This document shows positions 1 through 14,111 of a stretch of DNA of 32,893 nucleotides, piece by piece. Under the pieces are notes generated by a model. That model worked only from the letters and a program-made list of their open reading frames with translations, had not been told where the DNA came from and searched no databases. Every line of letters begins with the position of its first letter. The first letter of the stretch is position 1. Origin of the DNA: an uncultured Myxococcales bacterium (GTDB lineage: Bacteria; Myxococcota_A; UBA9042). Made by a program: the position numbers and the translations under genes. Location: contig CALENB010000520.1 in NCBI GenBank assembly GCA_937910235.1, positions 1 to 32,893 of the forward strand, written 5' to 3'.

Positions 1-1925
1 GGCTGCGTCCCACCGCCGGCCGGATCCACGGGCGGCGCCGCAGGCGGACCCGTCGTATCAGGCGCCGGCGGCGCGCCACCGTCAGCTGGCGGTGGGGAAG
101 TCGGCGGTGCAGTTGTCGGCGTTACGCCGCCAGGCGCAGCGGCAGCGGCAGCCGCGGCGGCCTGCGCAGCCTTGGCCTCAGCAGCGGCCTGAAGCTTGGC
201 GTCTTCCTCCGCCTTCTTCAGGCGCTGCTTCTCAAGCTCAGCCTTCTCAGCTTGCTGCTCCTTCATCGATGTCTTGGTGTCGACGAGGGTCTGCTTCCAC
301 ATCTTGATGAGGTTCTTGCACTCCTGAACGTAGCTGTTCAGCGAATCCGCCTGGCTCACCTGCCCGGCACGGGTCCGGTACTCAGCGAAGTAGCTCATCG
401 CCTTCTGAAAACGCTTAATCTGCGCGCTCACCTGAGCGACCTTATCCGTCTCATCGACGGTGCCAGCGAGCTCTTTGTTTTCAAGGAACAACACGGCCAA
501 ATTGAAGTACGGCGCCGGGTGATTGGCGTCCTGCTGGATCGCCTTCATGTACTGCTTCTGCGCCTTAGCGACACGCTCGGGATCTTTGCTGATCCGGTAA
601 GCGTTGCCGAGATTGATGCGTGCTTCGAAGAAGAGGGGCTCCTGCTCAAGTGCGCGGGTGAAGGCGTCAATCGACTCCTTTCCCTTCTTAGCGACCAACC
701 ACGTCACGCCAAGATTATTCCATGCCTCCGGGTAGTCAGCTCGAAATTCAACGGCTTTCAGGAAATGCCGGCGAGCCTCTTCGTAGCGACTGCCGTCTAG
801 CGCCATGCGTCCAAACATGTAGTAGATGTGGGCGAGTCCCTCTGCCTTGTCGAGCCCCTCGGCCGCGACGCCGCGCAAGCCATCCGACCCGCGCTGGCTG
901 CGAAGCTCATACTGGGTCTTTGTCTCCGGCGCCTCGGCCGTCGTCACACCGGCTTCGCTCTTCGGCGGCTTCATGTAGAGCGCGAACGCCTGATTCAACG
1001 CGAGCCGGGCCAAACCCGTCTGGTTCAGGTGAAGGTAGGCCATCCCCAAGATGCGCAGCACCTCCGGGTTGTCGTAGTCGATCTTGAGCGCCGTTACGCA
1101 GCTCTCGACCGCCTGTCGATACTGCTTCTGCGCGCTCTGCACCTGGGCGCTCGCGATCAGCAACATCACGTCACGTGGGCGCTGGGCCAACGCGGCGTTC
1201 ACGACCTGACTGGCGGCGGCGACGTTGTCGTTGCGCAAATGCACCACGGACAGCAGCAACACAGCGCGCGAAAACGTCGGATTCAGCGAGATCGCCTTGT
1301 TGAGGCTGGCGACGGTCTCCTGGTAGTTGCCGGTTCGCCACTGGACGAGACCGAGGTTGTACCAAGCCGTCGCGGAGTTGGGATCCGCCTGCGTCGCGGA
1401 CTGAAAGCGTTGCCGTGCGTCGAAATAGTTGAACGCCTTCAGATACGTCAGCCCCTCTTGCAGCGCCGCGTCTGCCGGCGACGACGCAGCGCGCCGATAC
1501 GTATCCGCGGCCGTTGGGGTGGCGGCGCCGGGTGCGCCAGCAGGCGCGGCGCCGGGTTGCACCGCGCCCGCGGCGCCAGGAGCCGCTGCGCCTGGCGCTG
1601 GGGTCGCGTCTGGCGCGCCAGGTGGTGGCGTGGCCGGAACGGTAGCCGGGGGGACGGCTGCGTCGCTCGGCTGCGCTGGCTGGTTAGGCGCAGGCGCGCC
1701 GTCGGGCGCAGGCGGCGCGGGGGCAGCCTCCACGGCAGGCTGGGCCGCCGCGAGGTTGGTGGGCTCGGTCTCAGCGCCGCCGCAGCCAGTGAGCGTCCCG
1801 GCGACCAGCAGCGTCGCGGCAAGCATGGCCACGGCCGCGAGCCGTTCAGCGACGTTGCCGGAGGTCACGGCGACAGGGGTCATCAGGGTCGGACGGCGAC
1901 CGTCATGCGTCAGGGCGGCGCTCAT
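1..1925 (-). CDS. TPR-repeat lipoprotein (partial, C-terminus beyond window)
   Basis: The frame is open from the ATG at 1925 to the left edge, giving at least 641 residues. The N-terminus has a hydrophobic stretch ending in a lipobox (LTGC, Cys48; Cys34 if translation starts at Met15), so it is a predicted lipoprotein. An Ala/Pro-rich linker (about residues 50-140) follows, then many TPR motifs (about 150-525, for example WYNLGLVQWRTGNYQETV near 186 and AWNNLGVTWLVAKKGKESI further on). After these come a Lys/Glu-rich coiled coil (about 545-590) and a Pro/Gly-rich tail still open at the edge. Its ATG overlaps the stop of the preceding 1412-residue TPR gene as ATGA, so the two are translationally coupled. 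It is the fourth gene of the operon. TPR lipoproteins of this layout include GltE of myxobacterial gliding machinery; this is a possible relation from architecture only. The long tail beyond the TPRs is not explained. Confidence 0.85.
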   Translation of the reverse strand, partial: MSAALTHDGRRPTLMTPVAVTSGNVAERLAAVAMLAATLLVAGTLTGCGGAETEPTNLAAAQPAVEAAPAPPAPDGAPAPNQPAQPSDAAVPPATVPATPPPGAPDATPAPGAAAPGAAGAVQPGAAPAGAPGAATPTAADTYRRAASSPADAALQEGLTYLKAFNYFDARQRFQSATQADPNSATAWYNLGLVQWRTGNYQETVASLNKAISLNPTFSRAVLLLSVVHLRNDNVAAASQVVNAALAQRPRDVMLLIASAQVQSAQKQYRQAVESCVTALKIDYDNPEVLRILGMAYLHLNQTGLARLALNQAFALYMKPPKSEAGVTTAEAPETKTQYELRSQRGSDGLRGVAAEGLDKAEGLAHIYYMFGRMALDGSRYEEARRHFLKAVEFRADYPEAWNNLGVTWLVAKKGKESIDAFTRALEQEPLFFEARINLGNAYRISKDPERVAKAQKQYMKAIQQDANHPAPYFNLAVLFLENKELAGTVDETDKVAQVSAQIKRFQKAMSYFAEYRTRAGQVSQADSLNSYVQECKNLIKMWKQTLVDTKTSMKEQQAEKAELEKQRLKKAEEDAKLQAAAEAKAAQAAAAAAAAAPGGVTPTTAPPTSPPPADGGAPPAPDTTGPPAAPPVDPAGGGTQ

Positions 1926-4900
1926 CGCAGCTCCTTCTCAGCGCCGGGCGCTGTGCCTTCGGGATGCTTCGTCAGACGTTTGGCTTCCTTGAGAAGTGGG
2001 TAATCCTTCGGCTTGTAGCGGTTGATGGCCACGCGCAGCTTCGTCACCCACTCATTGACCACCCCCTTGGCCTCCGCGTCCTTCAACGCCACCTCCAAGG
2101 ACTTCATCGCGGCGTTCTCAATCTGACCACCAAACTTCTCAAGGATCTCAGCCAGCGCCTCCTCTTCGTCCTCACTCAGGTTCTTCGGCGTCGGCGCGGC
2201 GTAGATCGTGCGCGCTAGGTGAACGAGCATCTGCGCACGATAGAGGTAGGCCGCGTACGACCAGTTGCGCGAGCCAAACGTCGCGACCTTGTCTTTGTAC
2301 TCCTTGAACATGCCGCCATCGCGCTCGTAGTAAACTTGGCCGGTGGTCGGGTTCTTCTTCTTCACTTCCTTGCCAAGCGCCGTCGTCATCATGGCCTTGA
2401 CCTCTTTCTGCAGGGCAGCCATCGCCTTCGTCGGCTTGAGACGCGGGTTCACGGTCAGCTTGCGGGCCATGTAGTCGTTGTAGGCAGGCTCCATCAAGCG
2501 GAACGTCGCCTCTGCAGCGGCGGTCGCTTCTGGCTTGCCGTCACGCTCGTGGTTGCCGCGCTCGAATTCGGTCAGGATCACGTTCCAAACCTTGAATTCA
2601 TCGCGCGTGCGGCCACGACCGCGATGCAGCCGCGCGATGGTGGCGTAGGCCTCGAACACCATCGCAGAGGACGCCCGATCCGATTTGTAGCGGTCGATGA
2701 AGGTGTACAGCGCCTTGATGTGGTCCTCGACGTTGCCCTTGGCCTTGTAGGCGTCGACGATGCGTTGGTTGGCGTCATCGCGCGCGGTCTTGCGCTTGTA
2801 GTCCGTCGCAAACTTGCGCACGACCTCCTCGTTCAAGCTGATCGCCAGATCCCAGTTGCTGTTGCGGAAGGCGAGCAGCGCGGCGTTGATGAGCGCGTCG
2901 GCGCCCTTCTCACCGTCTGGGTCAAGCTTGTAGACCTCCCGGAAGTTGGCGATGGCCTCAGGAATGCGGAAGAAGCGGAACTGCAGCGCGGCGCGTCGGC
3001 TGATCACGCCGAGCAGGCTCTTTGTATTCACCTTGCGCTCTTTCTCGGAGGTAGACGGCTTCTCGTTGATCTCGCGCAGCATCTTCTCGGCTTCATTGAG
3101 CGTGCCAAACGACTCGTCCCACTCCTGGGCCTGATAATACAGCGCAACGGCGTTCAGCAGGGACTGCAGCTTCACCTTGGTCTCGTCGGTCTCGTGCTGC
3201 AGACGACGATATTCCTGCGCCGAAGCTTTGTACGCGGCGCGCGCCTTGTTGTGGAGGCGGAACGCCTCATCGGGCTCCGTCGCCGCGAGCGCCAGCTTCT
3301 CGTCGCCGATGGCTTTGGTCCGGAGCGCGTCGGCCTTGCGTGCGATACCGCCGAGCATCTCGATTCGGACGGTCGCGTCGATCTTCGCCATCTCGCCATC
3401 GGAGAGCAGCCCAAGCTTCTTGAGCCAGGTCGCCACGCTCTGCAGGTTGTTGATGTCGACGAGCATCTGATAGCTGGTGAGCAGGTTCTTCGCCGCTTCT
3501 GTCGACACTTCCGTCTTCGGGTACTTCGTGATGATCGTTCGGAAGCGCAGGCGCGACGAGAAGAACTCAGGCTTGAGGTCTTTGTAGGGCTGCTCTTTCC
3601 AAGGGTCGAGGTAGCGGTTCTTGTAGAGCAGCTCTGCAGCCTTCAGCGCTAGCTTCTCTTCGCGGTCCTGACTGCCAGCCTTGCTCTTGTAGTTGCCAGC
3701 GATGTAGCCGTCGACCGCCTTGATCCAGAGCACCACGGCCTCTGGGATCTCCTCAGGGGCGACCGTGAAGTTGGTCTTGGCGCCCTTGGAGTCCTCCATC
3801 TCCTTGTTGTTTTTCTCCAACAAGGCCAGATCGCGCTCCGAGTCTGGGCGCACGCTCGGCAAGACGCGCGAGGGCAGGCGATCGGGGTCGTCGAAGGGGT
3901 AGGCAGCGCGGGCGTTGATGACACGCTCAGTCGCGATGATGCTTGAGAATGCGGCCTCTTCGGTGTGATCGACGATCTTGCCTTCGTCGTCTTTGCCCTT
4001 CGCGCCCTTCCAATCGCGGACCCGGTCGTAGAATCCCAGTGACTTCTTCATTGAGCCGCAAGCACCCTTGATGCCGATCACCTGCTCGGCCGACCACGGC
4101 AGCAACATGCCTTTGTACTTCTGGCGTTCTTCTGGCGTGACGTTCTTGAGTTTGGCGATGTCGATGAAGACGAAGTTCTCCTTCACCCGGCGCGCGTCAC
4201 AATGCTTGCCTGCGAAGTAGTAGACCTCAGCGAGTGTCCAGGTCAGCTCGTACGCCTTGTCACTGCTCGGATCATCTTGAAGCAGCTTCTCGTACTCCGC
4301 GCCAGCTTCGAGGTACTTCAGCCGCGCCTTCTCAGGGAACTGCCCTGCCAGATTCTGGGCCTGGATGTGGATCAGCTTGGCGAAGTTCATCCGCACCTGA
4401 GTGCTCATCTCCTCGACTTGGCGGGCGAGGTCCTTGTCTTTGCCCCAGATGTCGTGCCACGGCGAGCCCGGCGAGAACATGCGCAGGTACTTGCGGCGCG
4501 CGCTGATCTGCCGATCTTGGGCCTGTTGCGCCATCTCCAAGCCAAGGCGCGCGTCGACGTTGTTCTTGTCCTTCTCCACCTCCAAGCGGAAGCTCGGTGC
4601 GGCGGCCGCGAGCAAGTCGACGGCGCGGATGATCTTCTTCTGCAGCTGCTGCGCCTCACGCGCGAGCGGCCACGTATCCACCACGTGGCCGAGCACGAGG
4701 ATGCCCTGGCGATAGTAGTCGTCTTCCGCCTGATCGAGCAGCGTGTTGCCGTAGGTGATCATCACCTCGCGCACGTAGGGCTTGCCATTCATCAGGCCTT
4801 TGCGGACCTGAGCACGGGCGGCGAGGTTGCGCTGCAACGCCGCGAGCACGGTGCCTTGGTAGCTCGCCATCCAATCTGGAAAGGCCTCGGCTTTGGGCTC

Positions 4901-6160
4901 GAGCACGCCAGACACGTAGAGGTGGGTTCGGAGGCGCGGGTCAACCTGAATGCACTCACCCTTTGCGTCCGCACCGCCGAAATCTTCGCAGCCGTCGTCG
5001 TCCCAGGAGGGCTCAGCCAAGGACTTGGCGAGGTACTCGATGGCCTCTTTGCGAAGATCAGCGCCCTGCTTGATACCCTTGGCCTTGCTCTCATCGTAGT
5101 ATTCGATGAGCTTCTGGAACCACGCCACGGCTTCGGGGTAGCGGTACATCTGAAAGTGCGCCCAGCCGAGCTTGTAGAGCGCGAGGCCGTACATCTTCGG
5201 GTCTTTCGTGGCGGCGGCGCGGCGGTACGCGTCTGCGGCTTGCTCGAACTCGTTGTTGTCAAAATAGAGCTCGCCGACACGCAGCCACGCCTCGGCGCGG
5301 TACTTGCTCGTCGGGTAGTGTCGCTCGAGCGAGCTCAACGTGGCGATCGCCTTCTCAAAGTCGCCCATCTCTGCTTCGCAGTAGCCTTGGAGGTACAGCG
5401 AGGCGTCGGCGTGGCGATACGTCGGCCAGCGCTGCGGCAGCACAACGCCAGCGAGTCGGCCGCTCAACGGCAGCATGCGAGTGCCAGCCGGGACCCAGTG
5501 GAGATACTTGTAGATGGCGATCGAGCGCGAGAAGTTCTTGTCCTGCTCGTTCGGTGGGTCGAGCAACTTGCCTCGATTGTAGAGGTCTTGGCGTTCGTCG
5601 AAGTGATCCTGCGAGTAGTTGTACGCGGCGACGCTGTCCTCGTAGTAGAGCTCCGCTAAGCGGAACATCGCGTCGGGCGTGTAGCGGTCGTGCTCGCGGT
5701 GCCGGAAGATGAAGCCCTCGAGCCGCGCGATCGCCTCTTTGCGCAGCTTGTCTTGCTCGGAGTCGATCTTGTCGATCTGGGTCTGATAGGTGTCGTTGAT
5801 CTTGCGCTGGCGCTTGCGAATCTCGTCGGTGATGAACTCGCGCACCTCGGTGCGGAACTCCCCGGCGGCGCGGCGAAAGGCGATGTAGGCCGCGTCGAAT
5901 TCGCGCGACTCCTGCTTCATCCGCGCGGGGTCGTCGACCGCTACGCCCTTGTCGCCTCGGTAGGGAGGCATGCGTTTGACGGGCGCGGCGCTGACGCTGA
6001 CGCTGGCCAGGAGCAAGACCCCAACCAGCGCTGCGCCGAGAAGCGCCGCGCTGCGGGCAGCGGCGCAACGAGGCAACACAAAGGCGTCGCCGGCGCCATC
6101 GACGTGGGCGACGTCGACGCGGGTGTGGCGTCGGAGGCTGCTGGGCAGAAGTGCGCTCAT
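1922..6160 (-). CDS. Large exported TPR protein, 1412 aa
   Basis: A very long periplasmic-type protein. The N-terminus has a long basic region and then a hydrophobic segment (about residues 36-58) ending SVSA-AP, a predicted signal peptide. A Lys/Glu/Arg-rich helical part (about 75-155) precedes a long array of TPR-like helical pairs running most of the length; clear examples are the stretches around YRAEAWLRVGELYFDNNEFEQAADAY and LALYKLGWAHFQMYRYPEAVAWF (about 290-350). No enzymatic motif is visible. The ATG at 6160 has a strong ribosome site (GAGGAGG) and overlaps the upstream stop as ATGA; its own stop overlaps the next ATG the same way. Function is likely scaffolding in a multi-protein envelope complex with its three operon partners. 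A relation to the large TPR protein of the myxobacterial Glt complex (GltD type) is possible but unproven here. Confidence 0.88.
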   Translation of the reverse strand: MSALLPSSLRRHTRVDVAHVDGAGDAFVLPRCAAARSAALLGAALVGVLLLASVSVSAAPVKRMPPYRGDKGVAVDDPARMKQESREFDAAYIAFRRAAGEFRTEVREFITDEIRKRQRKINDTYQTQIDKIDSEQDKLRKEAIARLEGFIFRHREHDRYTPDAMFRLAELYYEDSVAAYNYSQDHFDERQDLYNRGKLLDPPNEQDKNFSRSIAIYKYLHWVPAGTRMLPLSGRLAGVVLPQRWPTYRHADASLYLQGYCEAEMGDFEKAIATLSSLERHYPTSKYRAEAWLRVGELYFDNNEFEQAADAYRRAAATKDPKMYGLALYKLGWAHFQMYRYPEAVAWFQKLIEYYDESKAKGIKQGADLRKEAIEYLAKSLAEPSWDDDGCEDFGGADAKGECIQVDPRLRTHLYVSGVLEPKAEAFPDWMASYQGTVLAALQRNLAARAQVRKGLMNGKPYVREVMITYGNTLLDQAEDDYYRQGILVLGHVVDTWPLAREAQQLQKKIIRAVDLLAAAAPSFRLEVEKDKNNVDARLGLEMAQQAQDRQISARRKYLRMFSPGSPWHDIWGKDKDLARQVEEMSTQVRMNFAKLIHIQAQNLAGQFPEKARLKYLEAGAEYEKLLQDDPSSDKAYELTWTLAEVYYFAGKHCDARRVKENFVFIDIAKLKNVTPEERQKYKGMLLPWSAEQVIGIKGACGSMKKSLGFYDRVRDWKGAKGKDDEGKIVDHTEEAAFSSIIATERVINARAAYPFDDPDRLPSRVLPSVRPDSERDLALLEKNNKEMEDSKGAKTNFTVAPEEIPEAVVLWIKAVDGYIAGNYKSKAGSQDREEKLALKAAELLYKNRYLDPWKEQPYKDLKPEFFSSRLRFRTIITKYPKTEVSTEAAKNLLTSYQMLVDINNLQSVATWLKKLGLLSDGEMAKIDATVRIEMLGGIARKADALRTKAIGDEKLALAATEPDEAFRLHNKARAAYKASAQEYRRLQHETDETKVKLQSLLNAVALYYQAQEWDESFGTLNEAEKMLREINEKPSTSEKERKVNTKSLLGVISRRAALQFRFFRIPEAIANFREVYKLDPDGEKGADALINAALLAFRNSNWDLAISLNEEVVRKFATDYKRKTARDDANQRIVDAYKAKGNVEDHIKALYTFIDRYKSDRASSAMVFEAYATIARLHRGRGRTRDEFKVWNVILTEFERGNHERDGKPEATAAAEATFRLMEPAYNDYMARKLTVNPRLKPTKAMAALQKEVKAMMTTALGKEVKKKNPTTGQVYYERDGGMFKEYKDKVATFGSRNWSYAAYLYRAQMLVHLARTIYAAPTPKNLSEDEEEALAEILEKFGGQIENAAMKSLEVALKDAEAKGVVNEWVTKLRVAINRYKPKDYPLLKEAKRLTKHPEGTAPGAEKELR

Positions 6161-8544
6161 GGCTGGTCCTCCTCATCGTCCGTGAGGGACTCGAGGGTCT
6201 TCTGCAGGCTGTTGACGCGGCTGTTGCGCTCGGTCTGCAGCTCGCCAACGCGCTTGGCCTTGTCTTGTTTGCGCTGCCACGCCACGTCCACCATACCGAG
6301 GTCGGCTTCGAGCACCACGTCGGCTAGGCGGGCCTGCGCGCGGCGGATCAGCGTGTAGCCGACCGTACGTGCCAGCGTGCGCGACGCATCCTCGTACTGA
6401 TTCATGCGGACCTTGTAGTTCGCGATGTTGGTCTTCTCGCGTCGCAGCACGGCCTGCACCTTCTCCGTGCGCTTGTCGACGCGGGCGCCGAGCGAGCTGT
6501 ACAGCTTGTTGATGCGCAGTAGCCCAGAATCCAGCTTGCCGCGAACGGAGCGCATCCGTGAGACGAGGCTCGGGTCGAGGCTCTTGCGCATCATCGCGGT
6601 CGCGTAGGCGGCCTGCTCCATCCGCTGCATGGCGAGGAGCGTGCCACGTACTTGACCCTCATCAGAGCTGACTTTGTCGCCGGCGCCGACCGCGGTGGCA
6701 CCGAGCTCAACGTCCTGCGCCAGCTGGTCGACTTCGCGATAGATGCGGCGTAGCCAGTCCTTCTGTGCCTCAAGCCCTTTCCGAACCTGCTCTTCGGTCG
6801 CCTTGCTCAGCACGACGCCTTCGGTGCCGTACACACGCTCGTTGAGCATCTTCTCGATCGCCAAAATCTCATCGCGCAGCGCGCTCAGCCTGGACTTCAG
6901 CAGGCTGATCTGCGCGGCGATGTTCACCCAGATGTTTTGAATGCGCGTCTCGCGTTTGGTCCAGTCTTTCGCGGTGCGCGGGATCTTCGCGAAGGCCATC
7001 CGCAGCTCGGCGGCGCGGCGACGCAGCGCGTCCACCTCGGCCCGCTGGCGTGCGTCCATGATCGGGTAGGCCTTGCCGCGGAGGATGTCGACGACGCGGT
7101 CGCCGATGGCGACGATCTGATTCTCCTGCTCCACCAACTTCAACCAGCTGGCCTTGAGCTTGGGGAACATCTCGATGCGGGCAGTAGCGGCGAGCGCGTG
7201 CTCAATGGTTCGAGCGAGCTTCTCCGACTCCTTCACGTCGCGTCGCTCGTGGCCCATCTCGTCAAAAAGCTGCACGACGCGACCCATGTCCGGATCACCC
7301 TCGATGTACTTGGCGACGCGCTCAGAGACCGGACGGACGATGCTGTAGTCGTCTGCGCCGCGGTTCAGCAGCCAAGAGAAGAACTGCTCCAGGCGCTCTG
7401 GCCGGGCGACAAAGCGCGTCAGCTCGCCGCTGATGGCGCTGTAGCGATCGACCACGTCTTTGTACGATCCGTCGGCCGCAGCGTACTGCTTGCGCATCAG
7501 GTTGATGCGGCCGCGCAGGACGACAGCTTCAACGGCGACTTTGTCGTCCGAGACGGTCAGCAGGAGCATGTCGAGGGCGTCGAGCGCACGCTTGGGTTTG
7601 TTCGCTGCCAGAAACGTCGCGGCGAGCTCAAACAGCGCTTCTTCGGCGACGGCGGAGTTGCGGTCCACAGCCGTGTAGTGCTCGATCGCCTGCTTGAACT
7701 GCTTTTTCTCCAGGTAGAGCCGGCCGAGCGACAGGTTGGCATAGTCCAGCACGACCTGCCTGGGCTTGCGCTTCACGTCTTGCACGCGACCGGCGGCGAC
7801 CACATCGCGGAACTCACGGATCGCGTCGTCAAACCGCTTGGCGTCGACGTGCAAGACGCCCAGATAGAAGCGCGCGGCCGCGTAGCGCGGGTCGCCAACT
7901 TCGACCTGCGCGAGGTATTTTTGGGCCTGCTCGAATTTCTTGGCGACAAAGAACGACCGCCCGAACTGGTAGAGCATGTCCGATCGGCGGGGGCCAGGCG
8001 GCACCGAGCCGAGGTACGTCGCGTACTGCGACACCAGCTCGAATTTGCGCATCCGGATCGCGATGTCGACCAGCGCCGTCAGCGTCGGCACAAAGTGGCG
8101 GCGGTTGGTGAATCGGACGATCAACGTCAGGTACCGGCGCGCGCCCACGTAATTACGCATGCGGTAGAGGCTGTGGCCGAGCATGTAGAGCGCGTTGTAG
8201 TAGTCGCGACGCTGCTGAAACGCCCGCGTCATGACGAGATCGAAGAGCAGCACCGACGCCATCGGCAGATTGCCGCGATCGTACGCGATCGTAGCGTCGA
8301 CGTAGCGGCGCTCAAGGGGATACCGGCGCTCACGCAACACGGCCGCGCGAAGATCGGAGTCGACGAGGTTGACCTGCGACAGCACGTTGTCGGCGTCGAT
8401 CTCGACGGCGCCGGGCGTGTCCGTGCGCGTTGCCGCCCACGCGTCAGAGCCCAAGCCAACCGGTAGGACCGATAGGACCAACGTCGCCGCCAATAGGACA
8501 ACGACCGTCGCGTGAGTGGCGCTGGTAGTTCGCATGCGGGTCAT
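6157..8544 (-). CDS. Exported TPR/coiled-coil protein, 795 aa
   Basis: Begins with a signal peptide (hydrophobic residues about 13-37, ending AWA). The first half (about 75-350) is TPR-like, e.g. DYYNALYMLGHSLYRMRNYVGARRY and AAARFYLGVLHVDAKRFDDAIREF; the second half (about 430-795) is long charged helices with heptad character, ending in an acidic tail. No catalytic motif is recognised. The start ATG shares one base with the stop of the upstream gene (TAATG) and the stop overlaps the next start as ATGA, so the protein is made in step with its neighbours. It is probably a periplasmic component of the same complex. Its TPR-then-coil layout recalls the periplasmic GltC-type proteins of myxobacteria, but only at the level of architecture. 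Met4 is an alternative start. Confidence 0.87.
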   Translation of the reverse strand: MTRMRTTSATHATVVVLLAATLVLSVLPVGLGSDAWAATRTDTPGAVEIDADNVLSQVNLVDSDLRAAVLRERRYPLERRYVDATIAYDRGNLPMASVLLFDLVMTRAFQQRRDYYNALYMLGHSLYRMRNYVGARRYLTLIVRFTNRRHFVPTLTALVDIAIRMRKFELVSQYATYLGSVPPGPRRSDMLYQFGRSFFVAKKFEQAQKYLAQVEVGDPRYAAARFYLGVLHVDAKRFDDAIREFRDVVAAGRVQDVKRKPRQVVLDYANLSLGRLYLEKKQFKQAIEHYTAVDRNSAVAEEALFELAATFLAANKPKRALDALDMLLLTVSDDKVAVEAVVLRGRINLMRKQYAAADGSYKDVVDRYSAISGELTRFVARPERLEQFFSWLLNRGADDYSIVRPVSERVAKYIEGDPDMGRVVQLFDEMGHERRDVKESEKLARTIEHALAATARIEMFPKLKASWLKLVEQENQIVAIGDRVVDILRGKAYPIMDARQRAEVDALRRRAAELRMAFAKIPRTAKDWTKRETRIQNIWVNIAAQISLLKSRLSALRDEILAIEKMLNERVYGTEGVVLSKATEEQVRKGLEAQKDWLRRIYREVDQLAQDVELGATAVGAGDKVSSDEGQVRGTLLAMQRMEQAAYATAMMRKSLDPSLVSRMRSVRGKLDSGLLRINKLYSSLGARVDKRTEKVQAVLRREKTNIANYKVRMNQYEDASRTLARTVGYTLIRRAQARLADVVLEADLGMVDVAWQRKQDKAKRVGELQTERNSRVNSLQKTLESLTDDEEDQP

Positions 8545-9347
8545 TACTTCTTCTTTGCGGCGGCGGCGGGCGCGGTCTTGGCGCGGTTCTGAATCTGCTT
8601 GACCTCGTACTTGATGTACGGCTTGTCCTCCAGATCCGTGCCGATGCCGCCGCGCTCGTAGCCGATGACGGAGACCTGCGTGATCCGACCCTTGGCGGCG
8701 TAGAACGTGTACGCAGATCGGAGCTTGAAGACGTAGCCCTTCAGGTACGAGAACAAGTTGGAGCGGCCGCGGTACACCAGCTCGACGGTGAGGCTGTGAT
8801 TACCCGGGATGATCGAGCCGTTGTAGATCTCGAATTCCGGGCGCTTGTGCAGCAGGCCGTTGCTGTTGTCCTGATAGTAGATCTTCTTGCCGTCGAGGTA
8901 GTAGAGCACCTTCGTCAACTCGAAAAACGATCCCATCTCATTCTTGTGGCGCAGCACAGCGCGCGACTCCTGAATGACGTTGTCGAGGATCTGCTCTTTC
9001 AGCAGCAGCAGGCGCGTCTTGGTCTGAAAGATCTTCTCCTTGATGCCCACGACCCGCTCCTCGATCTGGCGGAGTCGGGCCTCGTACTGTGCATCCCCAG
9101 AACGCGGCACCTCAGCAGGTTTGGCGGCCGGTGCAGCCGTGCCGGCCGGTGCAGGCGTGGCGGCCGGCGCAGCCGTGCCGGCCGGTGCAGGCGTAGCGGC
9201 CGGTGCAGGGGTCGCGGCAGGTGCAGGCGTAGCGGCCGGCGCGGGCGCAGCGTCGGGCGAGGGGGGCGTCTGCGCGGAGGCGTTCGCGCTCACGAATGCT
9301 GCCAACACAGCGATCAGGGCGGCTTTTCGTCGCAGCTTGTGGACCAT
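8544..9347 (-). CDS. Small exported protein with Ala/Pro repeat linker and coiled coil
   Basis: First gene of the TPR operon, 267 residues from the ATG at 9347, which has a good ribosome site (GAGAGG, 5 nt upstream); a longer reading from 9458 lacks one and would put 37 residues before the signal peptide. Layout: signal peptide (about 1-25, ending ANASA), an Ala/Pro/Thr linker encoded by seven 18-bp repeats (about 32-80), a helical segment (about 85-145) and a beta-rich C-terminal domain (about 155-250) ending in an Ala/Lys tail. The linker superficially resembles the swinging arms of dihydrolipoamide acyltransferases, and such proteins may be mislabelled that way, but no lipoyl or catalytic domain is present. 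Predicted role: periplasmic partner of the three large TPR proteins downstream. The family is not recognised by name. Confidence 0.82.
   Translation of the reverse strand: MVHKLRRKAALIAVLAAFVSANASAQTPPSPDAAPAPAATPAPAATPAPAATPAPAGTAAPAATPAPAGTAAPAAKPAEVPRSGDAQYEARLRQIEERVVGIKEKIFQTKTRLLLLKEQILDNVIQESRAVLRHKNEMGSFFELTKVLYYLDGKKIYYQDNSNGLLHKRPEFEIYNGSIIPGNHSLTVELVYRGRSNLFSYLKGYVFKLRSAYTFYAAKGRITQVSVIGYERGGIGTDLEDKPYIKYEVKQIQNRAKTAPAAAAKKK
9126..9251 (-). repeat. Seven 18-bp tandem repeats inside the first TPR-operon gene
   Basis: On the plus strand the unit is close to GGCCGGTGCAGGCGTAGC, present seven times without interruption with a few substitutions per copy. The period is a multiple of three, so copy-number change would lengthen or shorten the Ala/Pro/Thr linker by six residues without a frameshift. 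Confidence 0.85.
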
Positions 9348-9558
9348 CAGTACCTCTCTCAACCGCGGGCATTTCGCCTGCGTTTCCAGTCTCTTTGGCC
9401 CGTGACGCGACCGCCTGAGACCATTCGGCCGAGGGTGCGTCAGATGAACCGGTCGCACCTTCTAGCAAAAGGGAATGGCCTGCACCACCCCCCGCGCGCA
9501 CGGCCAGATCGGGAGCCACCGTTGTGAGTGTGGGCCCGACTCGCGCATTGCGGCGTTG

Positions 9559-9587
9559 AGTATAGGCTCGCGACTGGGACCCGTCAA
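9559..9587 (-). promoter_or_regulatory. Sigma70-type promoter of the TPR operon
   Basis: On the minus strand, TTGACG (9587-9582) and TATACT (9564-9559) are separated by exactly 17 nt, matching 5 of 6 and 5 of 6 of the -35 and -10 consensus. Transcription would begin near 9551, leaving a leader of about 200 nt before the ATG at 9347. In a sequence this GC-rich such a match is unlikely by chance. Confidence 0.75.
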
Positions 9588-9650
9588 ACAACCTTCACGT
9601 CTACAACAGACGATAACTGCTTGGTATTTACGAAGTTTAGCAGGTTGTTG

Positions 9651-9668
9651 CGAGGCTGAAGCGCCTCG
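9651..9668 (-). terminator. Weak hairpin just past obg
   Basis: CGAGGC and GCCTCG form a 6-bp stem with a 6-nt loop, starting 9 nt after the obg stop codon. There is no U-rich run after it on the minus strand, so it is at best a weak terminator or an mRNA-end stabiliser. Confidence 0.25.
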
Positions 9669-9677
9669 GTGCTGTTC

Positions 9678-11040: not shown

Positions 11041-14111
<3,071 letters not shown>

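Follow-up and report, generated by a model that had tools for sequence, protein, structure and literature searches.

A Glt-type gene cluster of an uncultured Myxococcales bacterium, conserved across its phylum and possibly linked to surface polysaccharide export

The window analysed here is an entire contig (CALENB010000520.1, hereafter C520; 32,893 bp) of an uncultured Myxococcales bacterium (assembly GCA_937910235.1, hereafter G000; 7.1 Mb in 593 contigs), and its left end carries an operon for four exported proteins, P1 to P4, three of which are built of tetratricopeptide repeats (TPRs). With a probability of roughly 0.6, we read this operon as part of a proton-driven, Glt/Nfs-like trans-envelope machine serving surface polysaccharide export, a function to which its genomic context points. 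By sequence comparison, its products are related to proteins of the myxobacterial Glt machinery, its gene order recurs across the phylum, and AglR-type ExbB and ExbD genes are present elsewhere in the same genome. In most relatives the transducer genes share one operon with a motor, an outer-membrane barrel and a polysaccharide exporter (OPX).

Results

Conserved operon and polysaccharide export genes

Profile hidden Markov models (HMMs) built in this analysis were run on 60 loci of the window's type (system A) and 12 loci of a second type (system B). Of the former, 50 lie outside the window's family, in other families and classes of the phylum; the named members of the family itself are uncultured metagenome assemblies. 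The system-A genes follow the order P1-P2-P3-P4-P5-(AglR-AglQ-AglS)-GltG-dn198-barrel-OPX-(Wzc), where P2 to P5 correspond to GltC, GltD, GltE and GltF, dn198 is a helical protein, the barrel an outer-membrane protein and OPX an exporter, and 59 of the 60 loci were collinear. The sole break, in L052, probably arose because open reading frames (ORFs) were sorted by their starts, the P3 frame being open upstream. In the stretches fetched for the 50 loci outside the family, AglR was found in 33, GltG in 39, the barrel in 33, OPX in 31 and Wzc in 10, and most absences coincide with the end of a contig or of the stretch. Collinearity that includes both barrel and OPX spans at least nine families. 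The original prediction of a Glt-like envelope complex had been made dependent on Glt homology and on a gene order that is not scattered in relatives; homology was found (see below), and the order is kept across the phylum.

According to Pfam and NCBIfam, the motor genes encode proteins of PF01618 and PF02472, and GltG ends in an AgmX/PglI tail. The barrel belongs to PF10082 (some members fall under its cut-off), the OPX of relatives is short (about 205–240 aa) with PF02563 and SLBB domains, and the Wzc-like protein combines Wzz, GNVR and AAA domains. A PF02563 search of 12 genomes recovered a single OPX gene per genome, and in six of them this gene lies inside or directly behind the system-A operon, while by our own estimate the chance of finding the sole OPX gene of a 5–10 Mb genome within 20 kb is about 0.2–0.4% per genome.

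These counts also bear on another explanation, a general envelope-maintenance or Tol-like complex in which a TPR scaffold with a TolQR-type motor would anchor the outer membrane and the polysaccharide genes would merely be co-regulated. The resemblance of the ExbB/ExbD motor and the TonB_C-type arm to parts of Tol and Ton speaks for it, as does the wide distribution of the operon in the phylum, but the strict conservation of barrel and OPX in the gene order of so many families and a single OPX gene per genome exceed what co-regulation needs, and the ExbB proteins of system A form a clade of their own in the ExbB tree. We consider a Tol-like role unlikely.

Two individual loci deserve mention in their own right. 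Two consecutive GltF-like (P5) genes occur at L043 (positions 11830–12454, genome G101), where other loci have a single one, and a public record titled Klebsiella pneumoniae (CAMDBH010000027.1, L114) carries a locus of myxobacterial type, so that its title looks like a labelling error.

Two Glt-type systems in the same genomes

The genomes of the phylum carry two Glt-type clusters: system A, with P1, and system B, whose GltC, GltD, GltE, GltF and GltG are near the Myxococcus models. For example, the system-B locus L217 scores 355 bits for GltC, 371 for GltG, 188 for GltE and 64 for CglF (a synonym of GltF, PMC4488436) on the NCBIfam models. In a GltD tree computed without a M. xanthus sequence, systems A (22 rows) and B (12 rows) are separated with support of 100/99, and P3 of the window falls within A. 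The window's genome has a B-type cluster of its own (contig C3, 1–8000; L225) with GltC, GltD and a GltE-like TPR protein, and this GltC reaches 200 bits on the Myxococcus NCBIfam model (positions 55–620 of 622), whereas P2 reaches only 60. The profile HMMs found P1, AglR, dn198, barrel and OPX in none of the 12 system-B loci. No GltI-like giant gene lies in the operon of any system-A locus looked at, and a non-exhaustive search found no GltA-, GltB-, GltH-, GltI-, GltJ- or GltK-type genes in the A operon.

Because the genome holds the closer C3 cluster and the GltD types split at 100/99, we judge that the window operon is not a gliding-type Glt set; on sequence similarity it is not the genome's closest match to the gliding machine, for which the C3 cluster is the better candidate. 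The original prediction had allowed for a variant or ancestral form with another role. The variant stands, and the candidate role would now be surface polysaccharide export, as suggested by gene context. It is distinctly unlikely that the operon is nevertheless the organism's true gliding machine, moving the cell: homology to GltC, GltD, GltE and GltF and an AglRQS-like motor in the genome would fit such a role, but the higher-scoring GltC on C3, the two GltD clades, the lack of a GltI-like giant gene and the confinement of P1, barrel and OPX to system A all argue against it, and the organisms are uncultured and without a known phenotype.

Operon fragments and motor genes in the window's family

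In the window's own family, P1 to P5 stay together and the operon as a whole is split into pieces within about 60 kb. The gene beyond position 1, which the original prediction had singled out for a check, appears to be that of a GltF-family protein (P5) on contig C559 of the same genome. The first 228 positions of this contig hold 75 in-frame codons rich in Pro and Ala and then a stop, the apparent C-terminus of P4, and P5, an exported protein of 104 aa, starts a few bases after that stop and is 70% identical to the gene after P4 in a congener. P4 appears to resume on C559, giving an operon of at least five genes; the putative join of C520 and C559 across a gap is drawn from reading frame and synteny. 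Wzc, OPX, barrel and dn198 follow approximately 10–15 kb downstream of P5 on the opposite strand, both on C559 (identified there by HMM, a PF02563 match and adjacency) and in G045 and G070.

No motor gene was present at the ten family loci read, and the best AglR match in all 22 family genomes had an E-value at background level, 1e-32 to 1e-39, versus 1e-62 to 1e-134 where the motor is linked, as would be expected if the family had lost its motor and retained a static scaffold. This is highly improbable. Every genome of the family retains a single AglR-type ExbB, which the ExbB tree places as sister to the linked AglRs (95/81). In the six genomes read, this protein scores 136–157 on the AglR profile versus 42–61 for the other ExbB proteins of the window's genome, and ExbD-type genes come after it in all six (Pfam-tested in G088). 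The AglR-type ExbB and ExbD genes of the window's genome are on contig C400, and in G088 a single 52-kb contig is collinear with C400 and then with the reversed window, a synteny by which AglRQS would lie some 7 kb beyond the right end of the window, on the same strand and about 30 kb upstream of P1. Motor loss was rejected on the strength of the ExbB tree, the gene neighbourhoods and this synteny.

Further observations concern the surroundings of the motor genes and the arms. On C400 (52787–59967, L068) and at L169–L173, the genes after the motor encode a nuclease-like protein (weak PF00565), two proteins rich in DxDxDG-type repeats and then ComEC, a set kept in six of the six genomes read. 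Moreover, 15 proteins of the window's genome end in an AgmX/PglI-type tail, the N-terminus being FHA-like in several, and GltG-like arms far outnumber motors.

Family assignment of P2 to P5

As single sequences, P2 scores 60 bits on the NCBIfam GltC model (curated cut-off 450) and P4 73 bits on the GltE model (curated cut-off 225), making them relatives and not equivalogs, and these scores are no better than those of other, unrelated TPR models. When the GltE model was used to find a Myxococcus reference, none scored above cut-off in 379 genomes; Glt-type clusters were therefore recognised by NCBIfam scores that all lie under the curated cut-offs, and "Glt-type" is used loosely throughout. The references for profile–profile comparison (hhalign) were alignments of such clusters from the same phylum. 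The P2-type alignment matched GltC with a score of 349 (E 2.3e-42), that of P3 matched GltD with 1209 (E 2e-138, 967 columns) and that of P4 matched GltE with 438 (E 4.5e-57), while mismatched controls (e.g., GltC vs. GltE, GltD vs. GltC) scored 73–127; P5 matched GltF with a probability of 97 and an E-value of 4.7e-11. On these profile comparisons P2, P3, P4 and P5 are assigned to the GltC, GltD, GltE and GltF families, which for the first three bears out a kinship that the original prediction had drawn from architecture. That they are unrelated proteins, Glt-like through TPR similarity alone, is hardly credible in spite of the indifferent single-protein scores, since matched pairs so far exceed mismatched ones and the gene order is that of Glt-type clusters, GltF-like gene included; generic TPR resemblance was rejected as the whole explanation.

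The GltD of the window's family (P3, 1922–6160) is approximately 200 aa longer than in other families, and the stem of the family in the GltD tree is very long (1.57 changes per column). Together, the long stem and the extra length suggest fast evolution around the time of the operon split.

Features of the window

The positions of the operon features are listed in Table 1. The original prediction of four coupled ORFs joined by TAATG, ATGA and ATGA overlaps agrees with what is read directly in the sequence, where all four lie on the minus strand. TPRs were found by Pfam in P2, P3 and P4, P4 has a lipobox (LTGC, residues 45–48), and the products of genes 1–3 have hydrophobic N-terminal export signals as judged by eye, also in accordance with that prediction. 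It had further placed four genes under one promoter: a single sigma-70-like site is indeed found 5' of P1 (one observed, 0.3 expected), but the gene count has to be raised to five or more by P5 on C559. In one congener (L106) both hexamers of this candidate promoter can be made out, in a second (L104) the -35 region, the intervening spacer having diverged. Shine-Dalgarno-like sequences were seen by eye ahead of genes 1, 3 and 4. The P2/P3 junction is an overlap of the ATGA or TAATG/TGATG type in most family loci, and the P3/P4 overlap is kept in nearly all loci examined; with gene order kept in 59 of 60 related loci, order and coupling go beyond chance.

Table 1. Features of the Glt-type operon in the window, with positions on C520
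Feature	Position	Strand	Description
Candidate sigma-70-type promoter	9559..9587	-	TTGACG-17-TATACT; 10/12 consensus positions matched
P1, 267 aa	8544..9347	-	signal peptide, Ala/Pro-rich linker, 43-residue helix and beta-sandwich (predicted); assigned to a new family, marker of system type A
TAATG stop/start junction P1/P2	8543..8547	-	AAGTAATGACC
P2, 795 aa	6157..8544	-	exported TPR protein, GltC family by hhalign
ATGA overlap P2/P3	6157..6160	-	CCATGAGC
P3, 1412 aa	1922..6160	-	exported TPR protein, GltD family by hhalign and tree
ATGA overlap P3/P4	1922..1925	-	CGATGAGC
P4, at least 641 aa, open at contig end	3..1925	-	TPR lipoprotein, GltE family by hhalign

P1 has no TPR and gave no match in the Pfam search. 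The helix and beta-sandwich form its predicted core (model with a predicted local distance difference test score, pLDDT, of 85), and the model had no confident match in the PDB (best E 2.5e-3, template modelling score 0.37). The profile used to scan the collection for P1 was built from a closer subset of homologues, the wider alignment being too diverse. Present only in system A, P1 is by these comparisons a new family and a marker of the window's system type. Its Ala/Pro repeat linker (ATPAPA units, window 9120–9270) varies in length and sequence among relatives.

The remainder of the window (9678–32891) looks by eye like ordinary chromosome, with genes for an Obg GTPase, a large ribonucleotide reductase, a phosphoglycerate mutase, a Dus-type protein, a serine/threonine kinase and an ArsA-like ATPase, and ComEC at the right end.

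Discussion

Proposed mechanism

In the machine that we propose, the window operon would encode the periplasmic and outer-membrane transducer, consisting of P1, the GltC-, GltD- and GltE-family proteins and the GltF-family P5 from the next contig. Proton flow through an inner-membrane AglR/AglQ/AglS-like motor would move a GltG-like TonB_C arm, the arm would pull the periplasmic TPR scaffold P2-P3-P4 together with P1 and P5, and the scaffold would act on the barrel and the short OPX lipoprotein, which may form a composite polysaccharide translocon, and on the Wzc-like co-polymerase. Surface polysaccharide would thereby be driven or placed, comparable to the work of Agl-Nfs on the Myxococcus spore coat. 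In its simplest form, system A would be a device in which a motor pushes, pulls or positions the polymer as it leaves the OPX/barrel pore, and P1 would be one of its dedicated components. What the motor does, which parts touch and what the cargo is are inferred here from the gene content. An ancestral single operon would have broken into nearby pieces in the window's family, leaving the transducer piece alone in the window.

Several points weigh against a machine of this kind. Support for a function of system A is genomic context throughout, and P1 belongs to a family without known function. OPX and motor lie apart from P1–P5 in the window's own family, with OPX on another contig in G016 and G005; GltG is unlinked in the window's genome, its best matches on C587 and C167 being candidates only. 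Three loci (L058, L237 and L244) have no OPX downstream although the sequence is available. The single-sequence structure model of the barrel has a pLDDT of 31, too poor for a count of 18 strands to be read from it. Finally, Agl and Nfs are dispensable for polymer export itself in Myxococcus (PMC3858216).

More tentatively, and at somewhat less than even odds, the Glt/Nfs core may originally have been an engine run on protons and tied to the one outer-membrane polysaccharide exporter of the genome. Its use in gliding and in wrapping the spore coat would then have come later, in a machine made for moving exported polymer, and P1 would be a dedicated part of the ancestral form. If true, coupling between a TolQR-type motor and outer-membrane polysaccharide export is possible, and myxobacterial gliding would have a concrete origin. 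With core, motor and the genome's sole OPX exporter in a fixed operon, the role of the core becomes a simple genetic question in single-exporter organisms. We found no report of the core-motor-OPX linkage in the open-access literature, subscription papers and preprints being outside the search.

Comparison with known systems

The Glt core complex comprises GltC, GltD, GltE and GltG with AglR, AglQ and AglS (Luciano et al. 2011, PMC3169522). Standalone cores have been suggested to form a basal transport machinery whose function is unknown (PMC3169522, PMC3858216), those outside the myxobacteria have one extra unnamed gene, and clusters G4 and G5 of M. xanthus are likewise of unknown function (PMC3169522). 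System A has the same protein families, in most relatives in a single operon, and P2, P3 and P4 bring the GltC, GltD and GltE families together in one cluster. AglR is linked in 33/50 loci outside the window's family and would be some 30 kb away within it, and GltG is linked in 39/50 such loci, with only the unlinked candidates in the window's genome. In contrast to the Glt core, system A adds P1, a GltF-like protein, a helical protein, an outer-membrane barrel and a short OPX, and in the window's family the motor and the exporter are split off. With the gliding machinery of M. xanthus (PMC3169522, PMC4488436) it shares proteins of the GltC, GltD, GltE and GltF families in the same relative order, but the closer matches to that machinery are in the separate system-B cluster of the same genomes.

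The AglRQS motor of Myxococcus is driven by protons, makes contact with GltG or NfsG and sets the Glt or Nfs complex in motion; when paired with Nfs, it distributes spore-coat polymer that has been exported (PMC3858216). By analogy, system A likely works like this Agl-Nfs/Exo machine, in which a Glt-type transducer and a proton motor also act together with an exported polysaccharide; nfs and exo are, however, separate loci in Myxococcus, whereas transducer, motor, barrel and OPX share an operon in most system-A relatives. The export end resembles the EpsY/EpsX translocon, a short OPX and a barrel forming a composite polysaccharide translocon in myxobacteria (PMC9601211): a short OPX with PES (PF02563) and SLBB domains adjoins a barrel gene in relatives (Pfam) and on C559, often with a Wzc-like co-polymerase, the difference being that the system-A pair forms the last part of a Glt-type motor operon.

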